Shown one piece after another: positions 1-64,000 of a stretch of 64,000 nucleotides of DNA (position 1 is its first letter; the number at the start of each line of letters is the position of its first letter). Where the stretch lies: NCBI GenBank assembly GCA_018242685.1, contig JAFEBM010000003.1, positions 17,295 to 81,294 of the forward strand. Direction: 5' to 3'. The notes under the pieces are model-generated. The model was not told the DNA's origin. It saw nothing but the letters and a program-made list of their open reading frames with translations, and ran no database searches. Made by a program: the position numbers and the translations under genes. Source of the stretch: Nitrospira sp. Lineage in GTDB: Bacteria > Nitrospirota > Nitrospiria > Nitrospirales > Nitrospiraceae.

Positions 1-2
1 TT

Positions 3-626
3 GACGTCTTGGACGGGAAATCGGCCAGACTGACCAACAGCACGAGTCAGTTTGGGCTGGAGTACGATTCGCTGTCCGATGTGGTGTCATTCGGAGTCGC
101 GCCAGGTTTGTTGATTTACTCCTGGGCATTGAGCGGACAGGGTACGTTCGGCGTGGCCGTGATGTTTGCCTATGTGGCCATGGGAGCCGTGCGGCTGGCG
201 CGATTCAACTCGACCGTGGCGCTGTCGGACGGAAAGTACTTTACCGGCCTGGCTATACCAGCCGCTGCCGGAGTCGTCGCGTCGCTGGTGGTCTTTGATC
301 ATTACCTCCTCAAAATGGGAGGGGATGTCAGACCGATCGTGGTCTTGCTCATGACGTTGGCGCTCTCGTTTTTGATGGTCAGCACGATCAAGTACCGGAG
401 CTTTAAAGAACTGAAATTCAAGGGCCACCGGCAGATCACCTACCTAGTCTGGGGTATTCTTACGCTGATGATGGTGGCAGCCTGGCCGGCGGTTATGTTA
501 TTTGTCATTTTTGCTGGCTATGCCTTGATGGGGCCGGTCGAAAAGGTCTTTTGGTTGGTTGCTCCGGCAGCCGGGAAAAAAAGCCTTGGAAAAGTCGAGT
601 CTCCGCCGATCGAATCCAATTCATAA
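3..626 (+). CDS. pssA: CDP-diacylglycerol-serine O-phosphatidyltransferase, 3' part
   Basis: The reading frame is already open at the window edge, so the 5' end of the gene lies outside. The first visible residues carry the CDP-alcohol phosphotransferase signature DG-x2-AR-x8-G-x3-D-x3-D (DGKSARL...GLEYDSLSD), the catalytic motif of enzymes that transfer a CDP-activated diacylglycerol to an alcohol. The run 'YDSLSDVVSFG' is typical of the serine-using PssA branch, which makes phosphatidylserine, the precursor of phosphatidylethanolamine. Several hydrophobic segments follow, consistent with an inner-membrane protein, and the C-terminal tail is short and polar. The gene ends about 440 bases before leuA; the T-box leader between them suggests leuA is controlled separately. 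About 205 residues are visible and 40-60 N-terminal residues are probably missing. Confidence 0.9.
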   Translation, partial: DVLDGKSARLTNSTSQFGLEYDSLSDVVSFGVAPGLLIYSWALSGQGTFGVAVMFAYVAMGAVRLARFNSTVALSDGKYFTGLAIPAAAGVVASLVVFDHYLLKMGGDVRPIVVLLMTLALSFLMVSTIKYRSFKELKFKGHRQITYLVWGILTLMMVAAWPAVMLFVIFAGYALMGPVEKVFWLVAPAAGKKSLGKVESPPIESNS

Positions 627-5386: not shown

Positions 5387-6409
5387 ATGATCAAGAAAAA
5401 ACCAGGATACACGGTGGCGATCCTTGGCGCGACCGGCGCGGTCGGCAGGGAAACGCTGGAGATCTTGGAGGAGCGGAAATTTCCGCTGACAAGCCTCAGG
5501 CTCTTTGCGTCCAAACGATCGGCCGGTGAGGTGATGACGTGTCAGGGCAAGGAGTGGACAGTTGAAGAGCTGACTGAACCTTCGTCGTTTGAGGGCGTGG
5601 ACCTGGCGTTTATCTCGGCCACAGATGCCATCAGCAAAGACTACGGTCAACGTCTGGGCGCCACCGGCGTTGCAGTGATTGATGATAGTGCGGTGTTCCG
5701 CATGGATGATCAGGTTCCCTTGGTGGTTCCGGAGGTCAATGCCGCGGCCTTGCGCGCCATGCCTCGTGGAATAGTCTCCATTCCCAACTGTACGACCACG
5801 CCCTTGGTCATGGCGCTCAAGCCGCTTCACGATGCGGTGGGGGTGAAACGTGTGGTGGTGACGACCTTTCAATCGGTGTCGGGGACCGGTGTGGCGGCCA
5901 TGGATGAGCTGATGGATCAAACGAAGGATTTGCTGGCGTTTCGCGACGTCACGACCAAGGTCTATCCCTACCAGATTGCCTTCAATCTGTTGCCCCACAT
6001 CGGCTCCTTCAATGAGGGCGGCGACTGTTCGGAAGAAGTGAAGATCGCAAAAGAGACCCGAAAAATACTCGGTGCGCCGAGGCTCAAGGTGACGGCCACG
6101 ACGGTTCGTGTTCCTGTGTTGCGGTGCCATTCAGAAGCGATCAATGTTGAATTGGAACGTCCGCTGAACGCGAACGAGGCGCGTGCTGCGCTGGCAGCCA
6201 TGCCCGGCGTGATTGTCTATGACGATCCGGTGAAGAAGCTGTACCCGATGCCGCTTGATGCGACAGGAAAAGACGAGGTCTACATCGGCCGTGTGCGGGA
6301 AGATGAATCGATCGCGAACGGTCTCAATCTTTGGGTGGTCTCCGATAATCTTCGCAAGGGAGCGGCGCTGAACGCCATTCAGATCGCAGAATGTCTCATC
6401 ACGAATTAG
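5387..6409 (+). CDS. asd: Aspartate-semialdehyde dehydrogenase
   Basis: Asd reduces aspartyl phosphate to aspartate semialdehyde with NADPH, the branch point to lysine/diaminopimelate, threonine and methionine. The N-terminal Rossmann motif GATGAVGRETLEIL is followed by the catalytic-Cys motif SIPNCTTTPLV (Cys135) and a VSGTG loop. A later R-x3-H-type substrate region (VPVLRCHSEAIN) is also present. The frame extends upstream into the NHL gene, but the ATG at 5387 gives the usual 340-residue length with the Rossmann strand close to the N terminus. It lies eight bases after the NHL stop codon. A short hairpin follows the stop codon at 6408-6440. Confidence 0.95.
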   Translation: MIKKKPGYTVAILGATGAVGRETLEILEERKFPLTSLRLFASKRSAGEVMTCQGKEWTVEELTEPSSFEGVDLAFISATDAISKDYGQRLGATGVAVIDDSAVFRMDDQVPLVVPEVNAAALRAMPRGIVSIPNCTTTPLVMALKPLHDAVGVKRVVVTTFQSVSGTGVAAMDELMDQTKDLLAFRDVTTKVYPYQIAFNLLPHIGSFNEGGDCSEEVKIAKETRKILGAPRLKVTATTVRVPVLRCHSEAINVELERPLNANEARAALAAMPGVIVYDDPVKKLYPMPLDATGKDEVYIGRVREDESIANGLNLWVVSDNLRKGAALNAIQIAECLITN

Positions 6410-6440
6410 CAGAACGCTCAAACTGTTTCAGTGTTCTGCT
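6408..6440. repeat. Short hairpin resembling the ends of the 702-827 repeat
   Basis: AGCAGAAC at 6408-6415 pairs with GTTCTGCT at 6433-6440 around a 17-base loop. The sequence (GCAGAA..CTCAAA ... TTCAG..TTCTGC) resembles the two outer ends of the 126-bp palindrome in the leuA leader joined with the middle missing. It overlaps the asd stop codon and lies just before the DUF2905 gene. It could act as a weak terminator or mRNA-stabilising hairpin, but there is no T-run. Confidence 0.45.
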
Positions 6441-6446
6441 ATTGGG

Positions 6447-6710
6447 ATGAAAGTGATGCCGGAATGGACGACGTTTGGCAAGATTCTGATTGGAATAGGT
6501 CTCGGTATTGCCGCGCTCGGGGTTCTATTGGTCGTCGTGGACAGGATACCCGGATTAGGGAACGCCTTCAGTTGGCTCGGCAAGCTTCCGGGTGACATCT
6601 CCATCAAACGTGATAACTTCAGTTTCTATTTCCCCATAGGGACAAGTATTGTCCTCAGCGTCTTTCTGAGTCTGCTATTCTATCTCGTAGGATGGTTTTT
6701 TCGCCGATGA
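6447..6710 (+). CDS. DUF2905 small membrane protein
   Basis: This 87-residue protein has two hydrophobic segments (about residues 11-30 and 60-83) separated by a short soluble loop containing RIPGLGNAFSWLGKLPGDI. The 'LGKLPGDI.I.r.n..fyfPi.tSi..S' layout is the signature of the DUF2905 family, small inner-membrane proteins of unknown function. The ATG at 6447 is immediately upstream of the family-conserved start. Its last 19 bases overlap the proposed start of the SpoIID-domain gene, which indicates translational coupling. No function can be assigned. Confidence 0.8.
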   Translation: MKVMPEWTTFGKILIGIGLGIAALGVLLVVVDRIPGLGNAFSWLGKLPGDISIKRDNFSFYFPIGTSIVLSVFLSLLFYLVGWFFRR

Positions 6711-7929
6711 TAGCAGCAGGGCTTTTGGCGGGAGCTGCCGGACTGGGCCTCTCTCTCGGCTCGGTCATGATTGCGGAGGCCCATGCCGCGCAATCGATTC
6801 GCGTGCTGTTGGCGCCGGATGTCCAGCAGCTGGAAGTGCATACCGATCAGACCATCTGGGTAACGGATGAACATGATCAGTCATGGTCCTATCGACCTGT
6901 CCTGCGAATCAAGGTGCGTGGCCATGCGTTGATCCTCAACGGTAAACCGGTGGTGAGTGCTCAACTGACGTTGCGGGCGGGAAATCACGACCTCAAGCTC
7001 TGGCTGAATGGGTACGACACAAGAACAGCGCTTCATGCAAGCGATGACAAAGGCGCATTGCAAATCAGTGGGTTGATCCAGCTCGTTCGGCGAGGAAAGG
7101 GACTGCTCCTCGTCAATCACGTCGATTTAGAAGAGTACGTCAAGGGTGTTGTGCCGGCAGAAGTGAATTCAGCCTGGCCCCCTGAAATGCTGAAGGTTCA
7201 GGCAGTCGCTACTCGAACCTATGCGCTGTATCAGCACATGCTCAGCTCCACTCGGGACTATGATGTGGTCTCGGGGATTCAGGATCAGGTGTATCGCGGC
7301 CGTCAAGGCATCGACGCACGGGTGGTGGAGGCGGTGGAATCTACGAGAGGACTCGTTGTGACCTACCAAGGCGCTCCGATCTATGCCGCGTTCTCTTCGA
7401 CCGCTGCTGGGATTACGGAAGATGCCATGGTTGTGTGGTCGAAGGATCTCCCTTATTTGAAGGGTGTGGAATGCCCATTCGACATCGAGTCTCCGTATTA
7501 TCAGTGGAAGGCATCCTTGAAGATCGGCACCTTGGAGACAAATTTGCGGCAACAAGGGTTTTCGTTGGGAACAATCTCGGCGATCACACCGCTCGCCTAT
7601 AGCCGTGCCGGACGAGTGGCGACAATACGGATTGTGCACTCGATGGGGGAGTTGACGCTACGGGGCGAAGACCTGCGTAAAGCGGTGGGGTATACGGTGG
7701 TGCCCAGTACGCAATTTACGATTGAGTCGGTCGGGCAAGACGTCATCATCACTGGTTACGGCGCCGGTCATGCCGTAGGTCTTTGCCAGTGGGGGGCGAA
7801 AGAGTTGGCGGAGTTGGGCTATTCCTTTTCGAGCATTCTTCGTTACTACTATCCGGGAACGGAACTTCAGGATGCTTCGTTAACCCAGGCACCGCCTGTG
7901 CCTCCGATCACTGCGGCCCCTCCTTCCTG

Positions 7930-7930
<1 letters not shown>
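6692..7930 (+). CDS. SpoIID/LytB-domain protein (putative cell-wall amidase or glycosidase accessory)
   Basis: An N-terminal hydrophobic segment ending in AEAHAA (about residue 30) looks like a signal peptide, so the protein is probably exported. The central and C-terminal part has the SpoIID/LytB hallmarks: LEEYVKGVVPAEVNSAWPPEMLKVQAVATRTYAL near residues 145-175, a YRG motif, 'AAFSSTAAGITED' and the C-terminal GYGAGHAVGLCQWGAKELA. In Bacillus SpoIID cleaves glycan strands; in non-sporulating bacteria the domain is associated with peptidoglycan remodelling. The gene overlaps DUF2905 upstream. Its stop codon overlaps the queA start (TGATG), so all three are probably one transcript. The short proline-rich tail is probably disordered. 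Confidence 0.85.
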
Positions 7931-8949
<1,019 letters not shown>

Positions 8950-25332: not shown

Positions 25333-26577
25333 ATGAGCCATCCCCCGGCCACGACTGCACCGCGCCAAGCCGCGGGTATCTTCATTCTCATCACCGTCCT
25401 CCTTGACATGTTGTCGTTCGGCATCATCATTCCGGTGCTGCCGAAACTCGTCGAGGAATTTTTCTTTGGTAATACGGCGCAGGCGGCCGTGCTTTATGGG
25501 TTGATGGGAACGGCCTGAGCGTTCATGCAGTTTTTCTGTTCGCCGATCCAGGGTGCGCTGTCGGATCGGTTCGGTCGGCGTCCGGTCGTGCTGTTGTCCA
25601 ATCTGGGCTTGGGCCTCGACTACATCGTGATGGCGCTCGCGCCGAACGTGGCCTGGCTTGTGGCAGGCCGCGTCATCTCCGGGATGGCCTCATCCAGCTT
25701 CAGCACTGCCGGAGCCTACATCGCCGACGTGACGCCGCCGGAGCAGCGGGCGGCGGCCTTCGGTAAGATCGGCATGGTCTTCGGGCTCGGCTTCATCTTC
25801 GGTCCCGCCTTGGGTGGCTGGCTCGGCGCCATCGATCCTCGGCTGCCGTTCTGGGGCGCGGCGGCACTCAGTCTCATGAACGCCTGTTACGGATTTTTCG
25901 TGCTCCCCGAATCTCTGCCGCCTGACAAACGGATGCCTTTCACCTGGGCTCGAGCCAACCCAACCGGTTCGCTCAGGCTGTTGCGCTCACACCGTGAACT
26001 CTTCGGCCTCGCGACGGTCTCGTTCCTCGGCTATCTAGCCCATGCCGTGCTTCCAGGCGTGTCAGTCCTGTACATGGGCTATCGCTATGGCTGGGGAACG
26101 GCCAGTGTGGGACTGATGCTGGCGAGCGTGGGCGTGGCCGCGACGATCGTGCAGGGTGGGCTCATCCGTCCCATCACCAGCCAGTTCGGCGAACGTAGAA
26201 CGGTCCTAATCGGGTTACTTTGCGGGGCGGTCGGTTTTTCCGTCTATGGCTCCGCCTGGGAGGGCTGGATCTTCTGCCTCGGCATTCCCGTGATGGCCTT
26301 CTGGGGACTTGCCGGTCCGGCAACGCAATCGCTCATGACGCGCCGGGTCAGCAGTGCGGAACAGGGCCAGCTTCAGGGCGCCATCGCCGGCATCAATGGA
26401 ATGACCGGCATGATCGGACCGACCCTTTTCACACAGACCTTCGCCTATTTCATCCGACCTAATTCAGCCTCCAGCACATCCCTCGAACTGCCGGGCGCAC
26501 CGTTTATCCTCGCCTCGCTCATGCTCCTCGGCGCCGCCATGATTGCATGGCGAACGACGAAAGCCGGCGGACCATAA
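25333..26577 (+). pseudogene. Tet(A)-type MFS transporter with one in-frame stop codon
   Basis: The frame is continuous in homology from 25333 to 26577 but has a TGA at 25516-25518 (codon 62). The context GTA-stop-AFMQFF corresponds to the Trp normally found in TetA-like proteins just before 'QFFxSPI.GALSDRFGRRPV', so a single TGG to TGA change explains it. Downstream the protein keeps the MFS loop, the 'NVAWLVAGRVISGMASSSFSTAGAYIADVTPPEQRAAAFGKIG' motif C region and all remaining helices. Reinitiation at the ATG 25525 would give a 350-residue protein lacking helices 1-2. Sequencing error or a recent mutation are both possible. Degraded pieces recur at 31799-31943 and 37027-37139. Confidence 0.8.
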
Positions 26578-27094: not shown

Positions 27095-28888
27095 ATGAGC
27101 ACACGCACACCCATAATAATAGTACTCTGGCTCCTTGCCATATCTACCGGCTGTGCCACTCCGGTACTCCTTGCCCAAACTCCTGGACCGTCTCGTCCAT
27201 GTGCTTTTCAAGAGATCGATCCGGCCAAGTGGGGGAACCAGCCATTCCGCAATCCGCCGGTAGAACAAGCCACCCACGGCCGCCTGCAAGCGACGTTGAC
27301 TGTGCAATACACCGATCCGCATACCACGTCGCTCGGTGGTTGTCCTGTGACACTGCGCACCTACAATGGGGAACTCGTCGGGCCGACACTGCGCGTGAAG
27401 CGGGGAGAGACCCTGAACATCCTGCTCAATAACGTCTTGCCACACGAGTCTCCGAACCAGATCGCGGATCAGATCAAGCAAGAGGCGGATAGCGCCTTTA
27501 TTGAAACTCGGCCGCATTCGTTCAACACCACCAATCTCCACACACACGGTCTGCATGTCTCACCGGTCGGTAATAGCGACAACGTGCTCCTCGCCATTCC
27601 ACCACAGACGCAGCTCCTCTTTGAGATCAAGGTGCCGGCAAACCATCCTGCCGGCACGTACTGGTACCACGCCCATGCTCACGGCTCGACCGCTATCCAA
27701 GTGGGGAGCGGTATGGCCGGTGCTCTGATCATCGAGGACGATGAGGCCATGCTGCCATCCGCCCTGCGTGAAGCGACTCGCCGAGAAAAGATTCTGGTCC
27801 TGCAGACCATCTTGTACGACGCCCAGGGGCGAGCCGAAGATATCAGCGCCTTCTTCCCAGATCCGCCCTCACCCAAGGATGCCTGCACGAAAGGGCTGCC
27901 AACCTGTACCTGGCAGACATCCAAGCGACGCACCACGATTAACGGGCAGATCGTGCCGATCATCGCCATGCGTCCCGGTGAGGTGCAGCGCTGGCGCATG
28001 ATCGATGCCGCCTTTCGCGAGTCGATCTGTGTCCGTCTGCGCAAACAGGGAAACAACAAGGAAGGCATCCCGCTGCATGAGATCGCGCTTGATGGTATCT
28101 ACCTCGGCAAGATCGATACTTGGTCTTCCAGTCAACTGCTCGACCTCGAACCAGGTTACCGCAGTGACGTCCTTGTCCAGGCTCCTAATACACCTGGACG
28201 CTACGAATTAATCGATGCAGAAAGCGGCGCCGGTTGTCCAGCCCAGGCCGCGTCCGGCAGCGCCGTGAGTAGCCTCGGCGTCGGCCTGCGGGGTGTTCCC
28301 GAGCCGGAACGTTTGCTCGCCTATGTCGACATTGCGGGTGAGCCGCTGCCCATGGCCCTACCCACAAACGCTGAGATGGCAGCGCTCACCTATCGCCCGG
28401 GCGTGAACTTGCAGACGCAGGCAGACGGCGTGCAGGAGGCGATCTTCAAGCTGGGCAGCGCCGTGCATACCGAGAAAGACGCACGGAACTACTTCCAGAT
28501 CAACTACCATGCTTTCAATCCCACCCGCATCCGTCCTGTCGGCCTGGGCCACACTGATATGTGGTTCCTCACCACGGTGGGCGATCCCCCCGGTGTGCTG
28601 CCGCTGCAGGAAGCCATTCCACCCTTGCCGCACGTCTTCCACATCCACGTCAACCCGTTCCAGACCATCCGCCAGGATCCGCAAGGCAAGAATGAGCTGG
28701 TGTGGAAGGACACGTTACTCGTCTTGCCCGCCGCCAAAGTGCAAATCTATACACAATACCTCGACTACATCGGACAATTCGTGATGCATTGCCACATCCT
28801 CGACCATGAAGATCTCGGCATGATGGAGATCGTCGACGTAGTAGGTGAACAGCCAACGACCATGCTGCCGATGCACGAGGGGCAGTAG
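27095..28888 (+). CDS. Multicopper oxidase (laccase-like)
   Basis: The protein is exported: the N terminus MSTRTPIIIVLWLLAISTGCATPVLLAQ is a signal peptide, possibly a lipoprotein signal with Cys at position 15-16. The four copper-binding His clusters are present: HTHG ('TNLHTHGLHVSP'), WYHAHAHG, HIHVNPFQ and HCHILDHEDLGMM (the last includes the type-1 Cys-His pattern). Three cupredoxin domains fit the 597-residue length. Multicopper oxidases oxidise phenols, aromatic amines or metal ions and reduce O2 to water. The ATG at 27095 has GTGAGGAG upstream; the frame is open further 5'. The decarboxylase-like and tyrosinase genes follow on the same strand, suggesting one pathway for aromatic compounds. 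Confidence 0.9.
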   Translation: MSTRTPIIIVLWLLAISTGCATPVLLAQTPGPSRPCAFQEIDPAKWGNQPFRNPPVEQATHGRLQATLTVQYTDPHTTSLGGCPVTLRTYNGELVGPTLRVKRGETLNILLNNVLPHESPNQIADQIKQEADSAFIETRPHSFNTTNLHTHGLHVSPVGNSDNVLLAIPPQTQLLFEIKVPANHPAGTYWYHAHAHGSTAIQVGSGMAGALIIEDDEAMLPSALREATRREKILVLQTILYDAQGRAEDISAFFPDPPSPKDACTKGLPTCTWQTSKRRTTINGQIVPIIAMRPGEVQRWRMIDAAFRESICVRLRKQGNNKEGIPLHEIALDGIYLGKIDTWSSSQLLDLEPGYRSDVLVQAPNTPGRYELIDAESGAGCPAQAASGSAVSSLGVGLRGVPEPERLLAYVDIAGEPLPMALPTNAEMAALTYRPGVNLQTQADGVQEAIFKLGSAVHTEKDARNYFQINYHAFNPTRIRPVGLGHTDMWFLTTVGDPPGVLPLQEAIPPLPHVFHIHVNPFQTIRQDPQGKNELVWKDTLLVLPAAKVQIYTQYLDYIGQFVMHCHILDHEDLGMMEIVDVVGEQPTTMLPMHEGQ

Positions 28889-28949
28889 CCTCCAAGTCAA
28901 CCTGACCAGGACACCGTAGGAGGAGCCACCATAAAAAAGGAGGAACTCC

Positions 28950-30140
28950 GTGAGTTCTACTGATCTACAGCCGTTGCAAAGACCCCTGACTCCGGCGATG
29001 AAAGAACTGATGCGCGAACTCGAAGCGATCGTCGGCAATCCGGTCGTCGAGGCGGCCTACAACGACGCTATCGCACGAGTGACACCGTTCATCGAAGATG
29101 GATCGCCCAATCCCTGGGTCGGACAGCCCATGAATTATTTTGTGAATTACTTCCGGGACTGGTTTACGTTCCTTCCCGAACCGGCCGGTGGTCTCGGCAA
29201 GATTGTTCCGTTGACGTGGTTTTACTTGAATAATCCGACTGCCGCTGCGTTTCTCAACACGTTCAAGAGCAAGCGCAATGGCGCGGCGGCCTATACGACG
29301 GAGATCTTCAACTGGACGGTCAAGTTCATTGTGGAGCGCGGACGCTTCATGGATTCGCCCGAATCGCTCATCTTCATCAAGGAATGGACAAGCGACCCGA
29401 CGACTCACATCGAAGATTTCATCGTTCCCAAAGGCGGGTTCAAATCATTCAATGAGTTCTTCACCCGCGAATTGAATCTGTCCCGCAATCCGCGGCCAAT
29501 CGCCGCCCCTGACGACGACAGCGTGGTGACCGCGACGGCCGACTCGGAGATCAATTTCATCCTTTCCGATCTCACCCTCACCCAGGAACTTGACGTAAAA
29601 TCGCGCCAGCTCAATGTGCTGCAGCTTCTGAACAACTCCAAGTATGCGAAGTTCTTCGAGGGCGGCACAGCCGTTTCCTGCGTGCTGATGCCTCAAAACT
29701 ACCATCACTTTCATGCGCCGGTTACGGGAAAGATCGTCGAGTCCATGGAAGTCGCGGGCATGTACAACGGGATCACTGACGGTGAACATTGGTTCAATAC
29801 CATCTTTAATGTCGGTGAAAGCACCACCGCCTTCAGCATCTTCGAGTATTTCCACCGCGCCTACTACATCATTGAAACCAAGAACAACGGCTACGTGGCG
29901 GTCGTACCAGTCGGTCTCAACACGATCAGCCGGATCAGACCCTCGCTCATCAATTCCCACTCTTCCTTCGTCCACCCCGGCGATCCTCCTGTGCCAGTGA
30001 AGAAAGGAGATCCGCTCGGCAACTTTGCTTATGGTGGATCGCTGAACATTCTGTTGTTTGAAAAAGGCGTGTTGACATCTGTTTCCGTACTGATGGGCAG
30101 CCGTCTGGGGACCATGTCTCCTCCGGCACGATCCAAGTAA
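28950..30140 (+). CDS. Phosphatidylserine decarboxylase-family (PsiD-like) pyruvoyl enzyme
   Basis: The proenzyme-type cleavage site GGS is in 'AYGGSLNILLFEKG', with the pyruvoyl-forming Ser at residue 364. The 'NYHHFHAPVTGKIVE' and 'FKSFNEFFTRELN' motifs are those of the PSD family. The ~175-residue N-terminal region before FFTREL is longer than in bacterial Psd and resembles the PSDC-type architecture of fungal tryptophan decarboxylase PsiD. The substrate could therefore be an aromatic amino acid instead of phosphatidylserine. This comparison is from memory and should be tested. The GTG start at 28950 follows AAAGGAGGA. The gene sits between multicopper oxidase and tyrosinase, away from pssA at the left edge. 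Confidence 0.8.
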   Translation: MSSTDLQPLQRPLTPAMKELMRELEAIVGNPVVEAAYNDAIARVTPFIEDGSPNPWVGQPMNYFVNYFRDWFTFLPEPAGGLGKIVPLTWFYLNNPTAAAFLNTFKSKRNGAAAYTTEIFNWTVKFIVERGRFMDSPESLIFIKEWTSDPTTHIEDFIVPKGGFKSFNEFFTRELNLSRNPRPIAAPDDDSVVTATADSEINFILSDLTLTQELDVKSRQLNVLQLLNNSKYAKFFEGGTAVSCVLMPQNYHHFHAPVTGKIVESMEVAGMYNGITDGEHWFNTIFNVGESTTAFSIFEYFHRAYYIIETKNNGYVAVVPVGLNTISRIRPSLINSHSSFVHPGDPPVPVKKGDPLGNFAYGGSLNILLFEKGVLTSVSVLMGSRLGTMSPPARSK

Positions 30141-30156
30141 AAAGAGAGGAGCGATC

Positions 30157-31791
30157 ATGAGCCAACCACAACTGCGCCTCCGCGTTTCCCTTACGGAATT
30201 ACAGACCCAGTACGAAAACGGCAACAAAAAGCCGCTTGAGACGTTGATGCGAGCCTGGAAAGGCATCAAGGAACTGCGGTGGGACGATCCGAATTCATTT
30301 TTCGCCATCGGAGGACTGCATGGCGAGCCGTTTCGCGGCGCGGGTTGGAGCAATCCGACCTACTGGGGCGGGTATTGCAACCACGGCAATGTGCTGTTTC
30401 CGGTCTGGCACCGCGCCTACCTCATTGCGCTGGAACATGCGCTCCGCAGCATTCCCGGATGCGAGGACGTGGCGCTTCCGTTCTGGGATGAGACCGCCCC
30501 GCTCCCGGGCGGCAACCCGACTGCGCCGGTGATTCCCTGGGCGCTGACGAACCAGACCTTCGAACTCGATGGAAAATCCATTCTCAATCCACTGGCATCG
30601 TTCAAGTTCACGCAACAGGTAACCGACAACACGGCGAACCCCAACGGCTTCAATTACAGCAAGCCTCTGCACTATGAGACGGTGCGGTATCCATTGTCCG
30701 GACTCGTGGGGACGCCCCAAGATCAAAAAGCGACCGACAACCACAACAAGCAGTTCCCCGACTGGAACACGAACGCCCAGCTACTGAATCAGAACGTGCT
30801 GAACTGGCTGGGACCGTCCATCATCGTCGACAAGAAGCCCGCGCCGGCCAACGTCTACGAGAAATTCCATCGGTGTCTGGATGCGCCGAACTATACCTTG
30901 TTTTCGAATACAACGTCGGAGACCGAATGGAACAACAACTACCCGAGTAATCAAGTCGTCGCACTTGAGGACCCACACAACGATATTCATCTGGCAGTCG
31001 GGGGCTTCGAGTGGCCCGGTAACCCGGTCGTCCCAGGGCAGAATGTCTCTCCCATAGACGGAGCGAACGGCGACATGGGTGAAAACGACACCGCGTCGAT
31101 GGACCCGATTTTCTTTTTTCACCACTGTTTCATCGATTACGTGTTCTGGCGATGGCAGAAGAAAAATGGGTTCACCGACAGGTTCGACATCATCCCGCAG
31201 TATCCGGGAACGAACTCTGTCGACAGCCAGGGTCCGACGCCGGGCGTGCCTGCAAACTCCTGGCTCACGATGGATTCGAAGCTTGATCCATGGAGTTACA
31301 CGGCCAGAGACATGATCAACATCGAATCGCAGCTCGGGTACACTTACGGCTCCGGCTCACTCGATGACGTTTCGAAGACACCGGCGGTCACGTTCCGATC
31401 CAACGCTGCCGAGTCTCCGTCTTCGACTGCGGTCGAAAACGCCGAGCCCACCAAGACCGTCGTGGTCTCGGGAGTCGACCGGGGCGCCATCAGCGGCTCA
31501 TTCGTCATCGCTGCCTTTGCGAACGTGAACGGCAAGCGCGAACTGATCGGTACGAAATCCATTCTCAGCCGCTGGAAAGTGCAGGGCTGCGCAAACTGCC
31601 TGACGCATCTCGAAGCGCGGGCGCACTTCCCGGTGAAGCGTTCAGTCGTGGCAGAGTTACCGCCTGAGAAGGTGCAGGTCGAAATCCGCACACGCAATCG
31701 TGAACCTATATCGGAAACGGCCTCGTTGCCGACGACACCTTTCACCATGTTCACCGAGGCGAAGAAGCGGTTCCGTGTGCAAGTGATCTGA
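30157..31791 (+). CDS. Tyrosinase-family copper oxidase
   Basis: The CuA region has 'LHGEPF', 'CNHGNVLFPVWHRAYLIALEHAL' (His ligands and the conserved WHRxYL...EHAL). The CuB region has 'NDIHLAVGG' and 'DPIFFFHHCFIDYVFWRWQ'. Together these give the six His of a type-3 copper site. A C-terminal ~180-residue extension after residue ~370 may be a beta domain that shields the site, as in other tyrosinases. The length of 544 residues is long for a bacterial enzyme. Tyrosinases hydroxylate monophenols and oxidise diphenols to quinones. No signal peptide is seen. The start at 30157 has AGAGAGGAG upstream. The three-gene cassette is unusual in an ammonia oxidiser. Confidence 0.9.
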   Translation: MSQPQLRLRVSLTELQTQYENGNKKPLETLMRAWKGIKELRWDDPNSFFAIGGLHGEPFRGAGWSNPTYWGGYCNHGNVLFPVWHRAYLIALEHALRSIPGCEDVALPFWDETAPLPGGNPTAPVIPWALTNQTFELDGKSILNPLASFKFTQQVTDNTANPNGFNYSKPLHYETVRYPLSGLVGTPQDQKATDNHNKQFPDWNTNAQLLNQNVLNWLGPSIIVDKKPAPANVYEKFHRCLDAPNYTLFSNTTSETEWNNNYPSNQVVALEDPHNDIHLAVGGFEWPGNPVVPGQNVSPIDGANGDMGENDTASMDPIFFFHHCFIDYVFWRWQKKNGFTDRFDIIPQYPGTNSVDSQGPTPGVPANSWLTMDSKLDPWSYTARDMINIESQLGYTYGSGSLDDVSKTPAVTFRSNAAESPSSTAVENAEPTKTVVVSGVDRGAISGSFVIAAFANVNGKRELIGTKSILSRWKVQGCANCLTHLEARAHFPVKRSVVAELPPEKVQVEIRTRNREPISETASLPTTPFTMFTEAKKRFRVQVI

Positions 31792-31798
31792 GAGGTCA

Positions 31799-31943
31799 TG
31801 CCGAACGCTACGTGGCCTGGCTTGTGGCGGGTCATGTCATTTCCTGGACGGCTTTCTGAGGACTCGCCGGTCCGGCGACGCAATCCCTCATGACGCGCCG
31901 GGTCAGCAGTGCGGAACAGGGTCAGCTTCAGGGCGCCATCGCC
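31799..31943 (+). pseudogene. Fragments of the Tet-like MFS gene, joined by a deletion
   Basis: Positions 31799-31846 match 25640-25680 of the MFS gene. From about 31847 the match moves to 26292 and continues to 'GCCATCGCC' at 31935-31943, so about 600 bases of the original are missing in between. Several base changes and a stop codon (TGA at 31857-31859) show decay. It is the left end of a mosaic of degraded gene pieces reaching to about 32330. Confidence 0.7.
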
Positions 31944-34124: not shown

Positions 34125-34454
34125 TTACAGCCCGAGCCAAAGCCGCAAGGCTCCGTCGAGCCTTTCCTGATCAGCAGCAGTGCGGTGACCAAAACACCGA
34201 TTGATCCGAGCCCTGTCCAGTGTAAACAATCCGCGCTTGACGGCGCTCGGAAACAGCAGTCCCGCTGCTTTCCAATCAGCCAAGGCAAATTCGCCAGGTT
34301 GTAGATGCTTAAGCTGGGAAGTCATCGGAAGGAGCAAGAGGTCAACTGACGGATGAGGGGCACTCACGACAACAGCTGGACGTTGTTTAATTCCCGTGAG
34401 GTCCGAAAACGGCAAGGTAGCCAGGACGACATCGCCCCGGTCATAACTTGTCAT
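34125..34454 (-). CDS. MazF/PemK-family mRNA interferase toxin
   Basis: The 109-residue protein starts 'MTSYDRGDVVLATLPFSDLTGIKQRPAVVVS', the conserved N terminus of PemK/MazF toxins (GDvV...PFsD..g.k.RPavVls). It continues 'LLLLPMTSQLKHLQPGEFALADW...AVKRGLFTLDRARI'. These toxins cleave single-stranded mRNA at short specific sequences. The ATG at 34454 lies inside the 3' end of the antitoxin frame (overlap of 14 bases), a coupled antitoxin-first operon. A frame that extends further upstream gives a longer N terminus unlike the family. Confidence 0.85.
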   Translation of the reverse strand: MTSYDRGDVVLATLPFSDLTGIKQRPAVVVSAPHPSVDLLLLPMTSQLKHLQPGEFALADWKAAGLLFPSAVKRGLFTLDRARINRCFGHRTAADQERLDGALRLWLGL

Positions 34455-34647
34455 ATTCGGCATCGCGAGAATTGTTCCAGATTCGTGCGAGGCTGGGTAG
34501 TGAGGCGTGGGAGACATCGGTCTTGAGAGCCATCAGGTCCTCTTGAGAATCCGGGATGACGACCTCAACCGGCGTATTAGCCGAGAGCGATACCGGCTCA
34601 TCCAGAACCACTTTCTCTCCATCATAGTGTGCCGAGATGTGCCTCAT
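34441..34647 (-). CDS. Antitoxin partner of the MazF-type toxin
   Basis: This 68-residue protein begins 'MRHISAHYDGEKVVLDEPVSLSANTPVEVVI'. That resembles the N-terminal beta domain of DUF104/AF2212-like small antitoxins. A charged C-terminal tail, which would wrap the toxin, follows. It is immediately upstream of and overlaps the MazF-type toxin gene. The assignment rests mainly on size, this motif and gene order. Confidence 0.7.
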   Translation of the reverse strand: MRHISAHYDGEKVVLDEPVSLSANTPVEVVIPDSQEDLMALKTDVSHASLPSLARIWNNSRDAEYDKL

Positions 34648-59006: not shown

Positions 59007-59732
59007 GTGAATCACCGCATAGTTTACGCGTTCGCCGCTGCGGCGGTATTTCTGGCCGTGGCAGGGACGGCTTGGGCGGAAGGGACATTTGAAGGGAGAA
59101 AGAAGTGTTACAACTGCCATAAAGGAGAGGGCGAGTCATGGGAGAAGACTCTCCATGCTAAGGCAATGGACTCGCTCAAGCCCACCAGAGGCAAGAAGAA
59201 GGACGAGGCGATGGTCAAGGCCAAGCTGGACCCCAAGAAGGACTATACAAAAGACAAGGATTGCGTTGGATGCCACGTCGATGGGTTCGGTAAGGAAGGC
59301 GGGTACGTTATCGAGGAGCCGGAGAAATTCTTAACCGGCGTTGGGTGCGAATCCTGCCACGGGGCGGGTAGCGATTATCGCAAAATACATCGCAAGGCAG
59401 GTGAAGCGTTTGAAAAGTCTCAGAAGACCATGGAGCGAGCCAATCTCGCCGAAGCAGGTCAGGATTTTGAGTTTGAAGAAAAGTGCAATGCCTGTCATCT
59501 CAATTACGAAGGATCGCCGTGGAAAGGCGCGAAAAAGCCTTATACTCCGTTTACTCCTAAAGTAGACAAGAAATACGCATTTGACTTCGAAAAGTATGTG
59601 AGGAACGACAAGGCGATGCATGAGCACTTCAAGCTTGCCGGCACGTTTACAGGTCCGCCCATGCCGAAGTTCCACGAAGAGTTCCAGAAGAACGCTAAAC
59701 CTCCGGTGAAATCCGATAAGGCGGAAGACTAA
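59007..59732 (+). CDS. cycA: Tetrahaem cytochrome c554
   Basis: The 241-residue protein has a signal peptide ending AWA and four CxxCH motifs: CYNCH, CVGCH, CESCH and CNACH. Their spacing, with 'GAGSDYRKIHRKAGEAF' after the third, matches cytochrome c554, the direct electron acceptor of HAO. A Lys/Glu-rich C-terminal tail follows. The GTG start at 59007 has AAAGGAG seven bases upstream. It lies about 175 bases after haoB, a gap that could hold its own promoter, and two bases before cycB. Confidence 0.93.
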   Translation: MNHRIVYAFAAAAVFLAVAGTAWAEGTFEGRKKCYNCHKGEGESWEKTLHAKAMDSLKPTRGKKKDEAMVKAKLDPKKDYTKDKDCVGCHVDGFGKEGGYVIEEPEKFLTGVGCESCHGAGSDYRKIHRKAGEAFEKSQKTMERANLAEAGQDFEFEEKCNACHLNYEGSPWKGAKKPYTPFTPKVDKKYAFDFEKYVRNDKAMHEHFKLAGTFTGPPMPKFHEEFQKNAKPPVKSDKAED

Positions 59733-62740: not shown

Positions 62741-64000
62741 CTAGGCACCCAGTCTTGTGAAGACCGGGAGAACCGGAGCCCAGATCGGATTAATAAGCCG
62801 CTCACCCTTGTCTGTCCAAGACATCAATAATCCTGCGAAGCGCTGATCCGGATCGTGGAGAATGTCCACCAACCGCTGCACTTCCCACAGAACGTCCTTG
62901 GACTCGATCTTGATGTCCACGGTTTGACCAGGCAGGATTGGGGCTTCATTGTCCATTGTCAAGCCAGCTTGTGCAACCAGCTCGGCTGGATAGTTTTGGT
63001 CAAGTTTGGCTGCCCCCATCTTGTTGGTAAACCGGATGCCTGCAGTCGTGAATTCACCGATGGTCACAGGCTCGGTACCGTTATTGATCGCATGAAGAGT
63101 CATACGCAAGGCCCGGCCTGGAACGTCATATTCAGCATGGGTGACTTCAACCACGAACGGGTTTGGCTTGATCGGCAGCGGCTTGACCTTGGTTTCGCCG
63201 GCCTGAAGCGGTACGCTTACCGGATGGCGTGCATCTGCCGCCAGATACCCGACGGTCACGACGACCAAGACGAAGATCAAGACCGCAGCTCCGACCTTGC
63301 GATCGATGGGGTCAAGCAAAATCTCATCCCCATACGCTGCCAGCACCCGAGCGCGGACCAAGTACATCGGTCGGATCATGAAGAAGCCGACCCAGAAGAT
63401 GGCCACGGCCGCCCAGAACAGGTGCCACATAATACCGGTGGCAGTACCCATAGTTTCTGAGTCGAACGTCTCACCGGTCAGTGTCTTGATCGGATTGGTG
63501 AAGTCCTCATACCGACCTGTGATGTCCATCCATCCGCCGGGTCCCGCGATCGGACCTGCATCCTTAACCGCGAACATCGGATGGATATGATGGTGGCCGG
63601 GGAGTCGAGCCTTCAATTGAACCACGTACTCGTAATCCCGTCCGATTTCCATCGGACCAGCGACAAACATTGGCGTTCCATTTATCTTCGAGCTGAGACG
63701 CACAAAGACGGAACTGGGAGAACCGATATTGAGGAACGTCCGGACCGGTTTGACAACCGCACGAGGCCAATCCTCGCACAAATGGAACTTTCCCCGCAGC
63801 TCTGTCACATCGTTGACTTTGGTCGACTTTCCAACCCATTCAGTGTCGTACCAATTCACGGTACGCATCCGCAGGAACGGCTCCTGCGAACGCTCTCCGT
63901 GAGCGAATGCAGGGGTGATATCGAGAACCGGCGTGAGCGCCAGCGTCGCTACCCCACAGAGGCCCATTACCCAGAGTTTAAAGACGTGTGTGGCGTTCAT
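62741..64000 (-). CDS. amoB: Ammonia monooxygenase subunit B
   Basis: AmoB is the periplasmic copper-binding subunit of the ammonia/methane monooxygenase family. The protein begins with a signal peptide ending AFA, so the mature chain starts with His34 in '[22 protein letters not shown]', the usual first copper ligand. The HHHIHP motif at residues 136-141 supplies the second and third ligands (His138 and His140). Two membrane helices at about residues 195-215 and 238-255 separate two cupredoxin-like domains. Length 419 is that of Amo/PmoB. The ATG is exactly at the window edge, so the upstream amoC-amoA genes, if in the usual order, lie beyond it. Methane monooxygenase cannot be excluded by this subunit alone, but hao and cycAB support ammonia oxidation. 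Confidence 0.95.

Follow-up and report, generated by a model that had tools for sequence, protein, structure and literature searches.

A block of three tandem genes, encoding a multicopper oxidase (MCO), a proenzyme resembling phosphatidylserine decarboxylase (PSD) and a tyrosinase, lies in a 64,000-nucleotide stretch of a Nitrospira sp. assembly (GCA_018242685.1; 4.2 Mb, 94% complete). This stretch, hereafter the window, covers positions 17295-81294 of contig JAFEBM010000003.1 (C33:17295-81294, C33 being the label of this contig) and ends where the contig ends. All three genes are on the forward strand: the MCO (597 aa; 27095..28888; Pfam PF07732/PF07731), the PSD-like pyruvoyl-type decarboxylase proenzyme (396 aa, GTG start; 28950..30140; PF02666 at residues 167-386) and the tyrosinase (544 aa; 30157..31791; PF00264, 149.5 bits). 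The domains were assigned without ambiguity, the frames are intact and without internal stops, the intergenic gaps are 61 and 16 bases, and the coordinates and gene kinds given by an earlier, sequence-only reading of this DNA are correct. A 4.7-kb segment holding the block (27101..31806, + strand) is collinear with a second Nitrospira genome (G011) at 91.7% nucleotide identity; dN/dS between the two is ~0.14 for the MCO, ~0.11 for the PSD-like gene and ~0.15 for the tyrosinase, and by these ratios purifying selection is acting on the block. A search with the decarboxylase found the block in two of 35 genomes of the genus, its own genome counted.

The PSD-like protein consists of a helical N-terminal domain (residues ~1-160) ahead of the PF02666 domain and carries GGS at residues 362-364, which bears out the long N-terminal domain and GGS site described in the sequence-only reading. 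GGSL (362-365) is invariant in the 22 aligned members of its clade, and the predicted catalytic set is D198, H252/H255 and S364; the proenzyme would self-cleave at Gly363-Ser364, into chains calculated at ~40.5 and 3.5 kDa. No transmembrane-like stretch was seen in it (maximum 19-residue Kyte-Doolittle value 1.41), suggesting a soluble protein, while peripheral membrane binding would be compatible with this result. The PF02666 match passes its cut-off (114 bits vs 22), and the scores against the curated PSD equivalog models all fall far under theirs (97, 61, 59 and 54 bits vs 371, 307, 111.75 and 285 respectively). Compared with E. coli PSD, more residues of the predicted fold can be matched to PsiD, which decarboxylates L-tryptophan in Psilocybe cubensis, and to an arginine decarboxylase from a fungus. 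In the tree (11 of 49 rows left out, here and in the topology test below) the protein groups with PsiD and arginine decarboxylase at 98/96, on a branch apart from canonical PSD.

The genome has a separate psd for phospholipid synthesis. The window starts inside pssA (end part at 1..395, + strand; C33:17198-17689), which the sequence-only reading had placed away from the block. Adjoining it just outside the window is a further gene with PF02666 (219 aa; C33:16599-17102), a canonical psd; housekeeping psd was thereby excluded as the identity of the PSD-like gene.

Relatives 61-71% identical to the PSD-like protein form a sparse clade that crosses phyla (clade A). A tyrosinase, of one of three diverged types, stands within one gene of the decarboxylase at nine of the 16 full-length clade-A loci, but near none of the 14 loci of the sister clade (clade B). 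Four fragments, all without a tyrosinase match, were left out of these counts (L020 and L028 of clade A, L029 and L031 of clade B), and two sequences only ~24% identical (L035, L036) fall outside both clades. The two clades differ at several positions in the loop at residues 273-299, a possible lining of the substrate pocket (13 of the 14 clade-B sequences compared). The adjacency occurs in five groups beyond Nitrospira, and the chance of nine in 16 would be ~2e-17, assuming five tyrosinases per 4000 genes. Because the block is under purifying selection and the PSD-tyrosinase adjacency recurs in other phyla, the arrangement goes beyond chance. Thus the gene order suggested by the sequence-only reading is conserved in part: the decarboxylase-tyrosinase adjacency recurs, whereas the exact order MCO-PSD-tyrosinase was observed in the two Nitrospira only (the cyanobacterium Adonisia turfae has tyrosinase-PSD-MCO), and an MCO is found at only three of the 16 clade-A loci. 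No report of the decarboxylase-tyrosinase pairing was found in the open literature searched; each of the enzyme families is known, but what appears new to us is that they are combined, where this combination has spread and that the decarboxylase is probably misnamed. Two further observations on the clade are a record from the red alga Gracilaria domingensis (P0123), 60% identical to the window decarboxylase and due to either transfer or contamination, and a thiamine-diphosphate enzyme adjoining the clade-A decarboxylase fragment of a myxobacterium (L028:2-2074).

Both oxidases carry the residues of their families. In the tyrosinase, which has a 97% identical relative recorded as 'Nitrospira sp.', all six copper histidines of PF00264 are accounted for, with roles assigned by eye: H55, H76 and H85 for CuA, with the C74-x-H76 thioether pattern, and H274, H278 and either H322 or H323 for CuB. 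N275 occupies the HisB1+1 position and E271 is the likely water keeper, also by eye; according to the part of PMC11608171 consulted, these two positions bear on tyrosinase activity, and Asn alone does not define a tyrosinase. Inspection of its sequence by eye revealed no signal peptide. The MCO, on the other hand, has a predicted lipoprotein signal (LAISTGC, Cys20; lipobox judged by eye) together with the type 1/2/3 copper-ligand motifs HTHGLH, YHAHAH, HVFHIH and HCHILDHEDLGMM.

We consider, at a probability of roughly 0.45, that the PSD-like protein is a self-cleaving pyruvoyl enzyme that decarboxylates an aromatic amino acid in free form and works with the tyrosinase, the copper oxidase being predicted to act on the product. 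The pathway proposed in the sequence-only reading is thereby supported in part. What points to an aromatic substrate is the repeated pairing with tyrosinases. In the steps that we infer (self-cleavage, amino-acid substrate, order of the two reactions and quinone fate), the proenzyme would be cleaved at G363-S364 to the pyruvoyl enzyme, which, in the cytoplasm, would remove the carboxyl group from a free amino acid, tyrosine or DOPA (3,4-dihydroxyphenylalanine) being the best-fitting substrate; the tyrosinase would then convert the phenolic amine by hydroxylation and oxidation to an o-quinone, whose fate may be a melanin-like polymer, cross-linking or defence, and the MCO, as a predicted lipoprotein, may act on exported product outside the cytoplasm.

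Several observations weigh against this assignment: i) seven of the 16 clade-A loci have no nearby tyrosinase; ii) in the part of PMC6121855 consulted, PsiD accepts neither Tyr nor Phe, while PMC12603985, also seen in part, calls it unspecific toward ring substitutions; iii) the structure model is middling (pLDDT 77.5, with residues 273-299 below 50); iv) a profile-profile comparison with one relative bearing the PSDC domain aligned the catalytic domain only; v) the other close fold match of the PSD-like protein decarboxylates arginine; vi) although the phylogeny does not put the protein firmly with canonical PSD, an approximately unbiased (AU) test did not reject the joining of clades A and B with E. 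coli-type PSD (p 0.105, long branches being present); and vii) five Bacteroidota loci (L007, L008, L012, L013 and L014) pair the decarboxylase with an unrelated 585-aa protein.

This last partner has no Pfam domain and matches the YiiX/permuted papain-like fold only weakly; H141 and C251 are invariant in 43 aligned sequences, and some members have LysM domains. It is fused to the decarboxylase at one of the five loci (L014:8201-11161), and further natural fusions occur in P0126, P0135 and P0152. A protein with a 7TM sensor and a nucleotide cyclase (Pfam domains seen in L007) is conserved upstream of the pair at all five loci (at about 6000-8100). Since the same kind of decarboxylase has a weakly YiiX-like partner in Bacteroidota, its general role would be to make a specialised amine, of which the tyrosinase would represent one of two ways of use. 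Given its fold match to an arginine decarboxylase and the YiiX-like partner, the enzyme could also act on a non-aromatic substrate (arginine, a different amino acid or a conjugate of one), with the tyrosinase acting on a separate phenol or on an amine-carrying protein or conjugate. We regard this as unlikely though worth keeping in view, as the pairing with three tyrosinase types is explained most simply by a shared phenolic intermediate.

Less probable still is an accessory PSD whose product, phosphatidylethanolamine or a different aminolipid, would form a special pool. The retention of the PSD-type Asp/His/Ser set in the PF02666 domain, the AU result and a YiiX-like partner that could act on lipid amides are all consistent with such a role. 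However, of 14 genomes tested in which clade A is represented at full length (the window's own and 13 others), 13 have another PF02666 gene. Over the 25 genomes searched for PF02666 (G011 and 24 with named relatives; L015 was not covered), 20 have at least two matches and five have one. In Adonisia turfae the clade-A decarboxylase is the only PF02666 protein, and its genome yielded no pssA over the cut-off, with one weak match; to our knowledge cyanobacteria lack phosphatidylethanolamine, which fits this result. The pssA argument is soft, and this too counts against our reading: Fulvivirga (G107) likewise lacks a pssA over the cut-off (25 bits) despite having a canonical-type psd, and the cut-off was passed in only five of ten genomes. 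The lack of a transmembrane-like stretch, compatible as it is with peripheral binding, and the tyrosinase next door also speak against a lipid substrate.

That the three are chance neighbours in a recombination-prone stretch, acting separately (copper/phenol detoxification plus a stray decarboxylase), would suit the gene copies that bracket the block, the rarity of the block in the genus and the seldom shared MCO, but is improbable given the adjacency in five other groups and its minute chance expectation under the assumed density; for the MCO alone, a chance neighbourhood is plausible. The bracketing copies are of a Tet-like exporter of the major facilitator superfamily (MFS). Upstream of the block is an MFS gene of 350 aa (25525..26577, + strand; Pfam MFS_1; best NCBIfam match the Tet(A/B/C) family, under cut-off), and downstream of the tyrosinase is a remnant of a second copy (31810..31943, + strand), found through direct repeats of 106 nt (91% identity) and 43 nt (84%) and by blastn between the window and G011. 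In G011 the block is flanked by two such copies (L032 6756-7997 and 14138-15379). Relative to G011, where the gene encodes 414 aa, the upstream copy in the window is shorter and the downstream one reduced to the remnant.

The host is sensibly read as a comammox-type Nitrospira. The contig stops inside amoB (62741-64000; PF04744, 507 bits), and the window also holds an HAO-type multihaem cytochrome (PF13447; 55992-57806) and a c554-type cytochrome (59007-59732), in agreement with the ammonia oxidiser named in the sequence-only reading. A search of the assembly did not find AmoA, for which the contig break inside amoB is the likely explanation; AmoA was found in 48 of the 77 Nitrospira-genus genomes searched, including G011. 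A PemK/MazF-like toxin-domain protein (PF02452) is encoded at 34125-34517 on the minus strand.

More tentatively, a clade of bacterial pyruvoyl tyrosine/DOPA decarboxylases independent of pyridoxal phosphate (PLP) may move between phyla and repeatedly join local tyrosinases to yield catecholamine quinones, a comammox Nitrospira having possibly acquired it ~25-30 kb from its hao and amo genes. If the aromatic assignment is true, bacteria would make phenolic amines by a tyrosinase-coupled pyruvoyl route distinct from the PLP enzymes, and a chemolithoautotrophic nitrifier would have quinone or melanin-like chemistry, with a bearing on copper, oxidative or competitor stress. The source names of the relatives (among the 120 listed of 647), 'phosphatidylserine decarboxylase' and one 'hypothetical protein', would then be wrong.

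Compared with known systems, the PSD-like protein has PF02666 and the Asp/His/Ser set in common with canonical PSD (the E. coli type and the short type of 215-240 aa), the role of these residues in E. coli PSD being taken from the part of PMC7952604 consulted; it differs by its extra N-terminal domain and by GGSL in place of the LGST of an E. coli-type relative (L049). With PsiD (8x4q, 8zia) it shares a two-domain fold with a helical N-terminal domain. It lacks the marks of the PsiD family, by which PsiD was ruled out as an identity: the cleavage site is GGSL and not GGSS, which the part of PMC6121855 consulted describes as unique to PsiD, and none of the 22 clade members has PF12588 (PSDC) at E<=1. 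Where the window protein has D198, the aligned PsiD reads ACES. PSDC, which we take to be the domain of the N-terminal part of PsiD, was found in an anammox relative (L063); that Candidatus Anammoxibacter genome (G115; L020/L063/L075) has eight PF02666 matches. The Aspergillus oryzae arginine decarboxylase (9jer, 9jf5), of the same superfamily, is 19% identical and has Asn where the window protein keeps the second His of YHHFHAP. For the tyrosinase, the counterpart is BtTYR of Burkholderia thailandensis (5zrd), for which we know of no decarboxylase partner; it matches residues 7-513 at 507.5 bits, into a C-terminal domain that the two proteins have alike. The MCO scores under the NCBIfam cut-offs for the CueO, CopA-type and laccase models; its best solved relatives are laccases, Thermus laccase among them (~106 bits), and the copper-ligand motifs and Cu-oxidase domains of the bacterial MCO/laccase family (Thermus laccase, CueO) are also present in the window protein.
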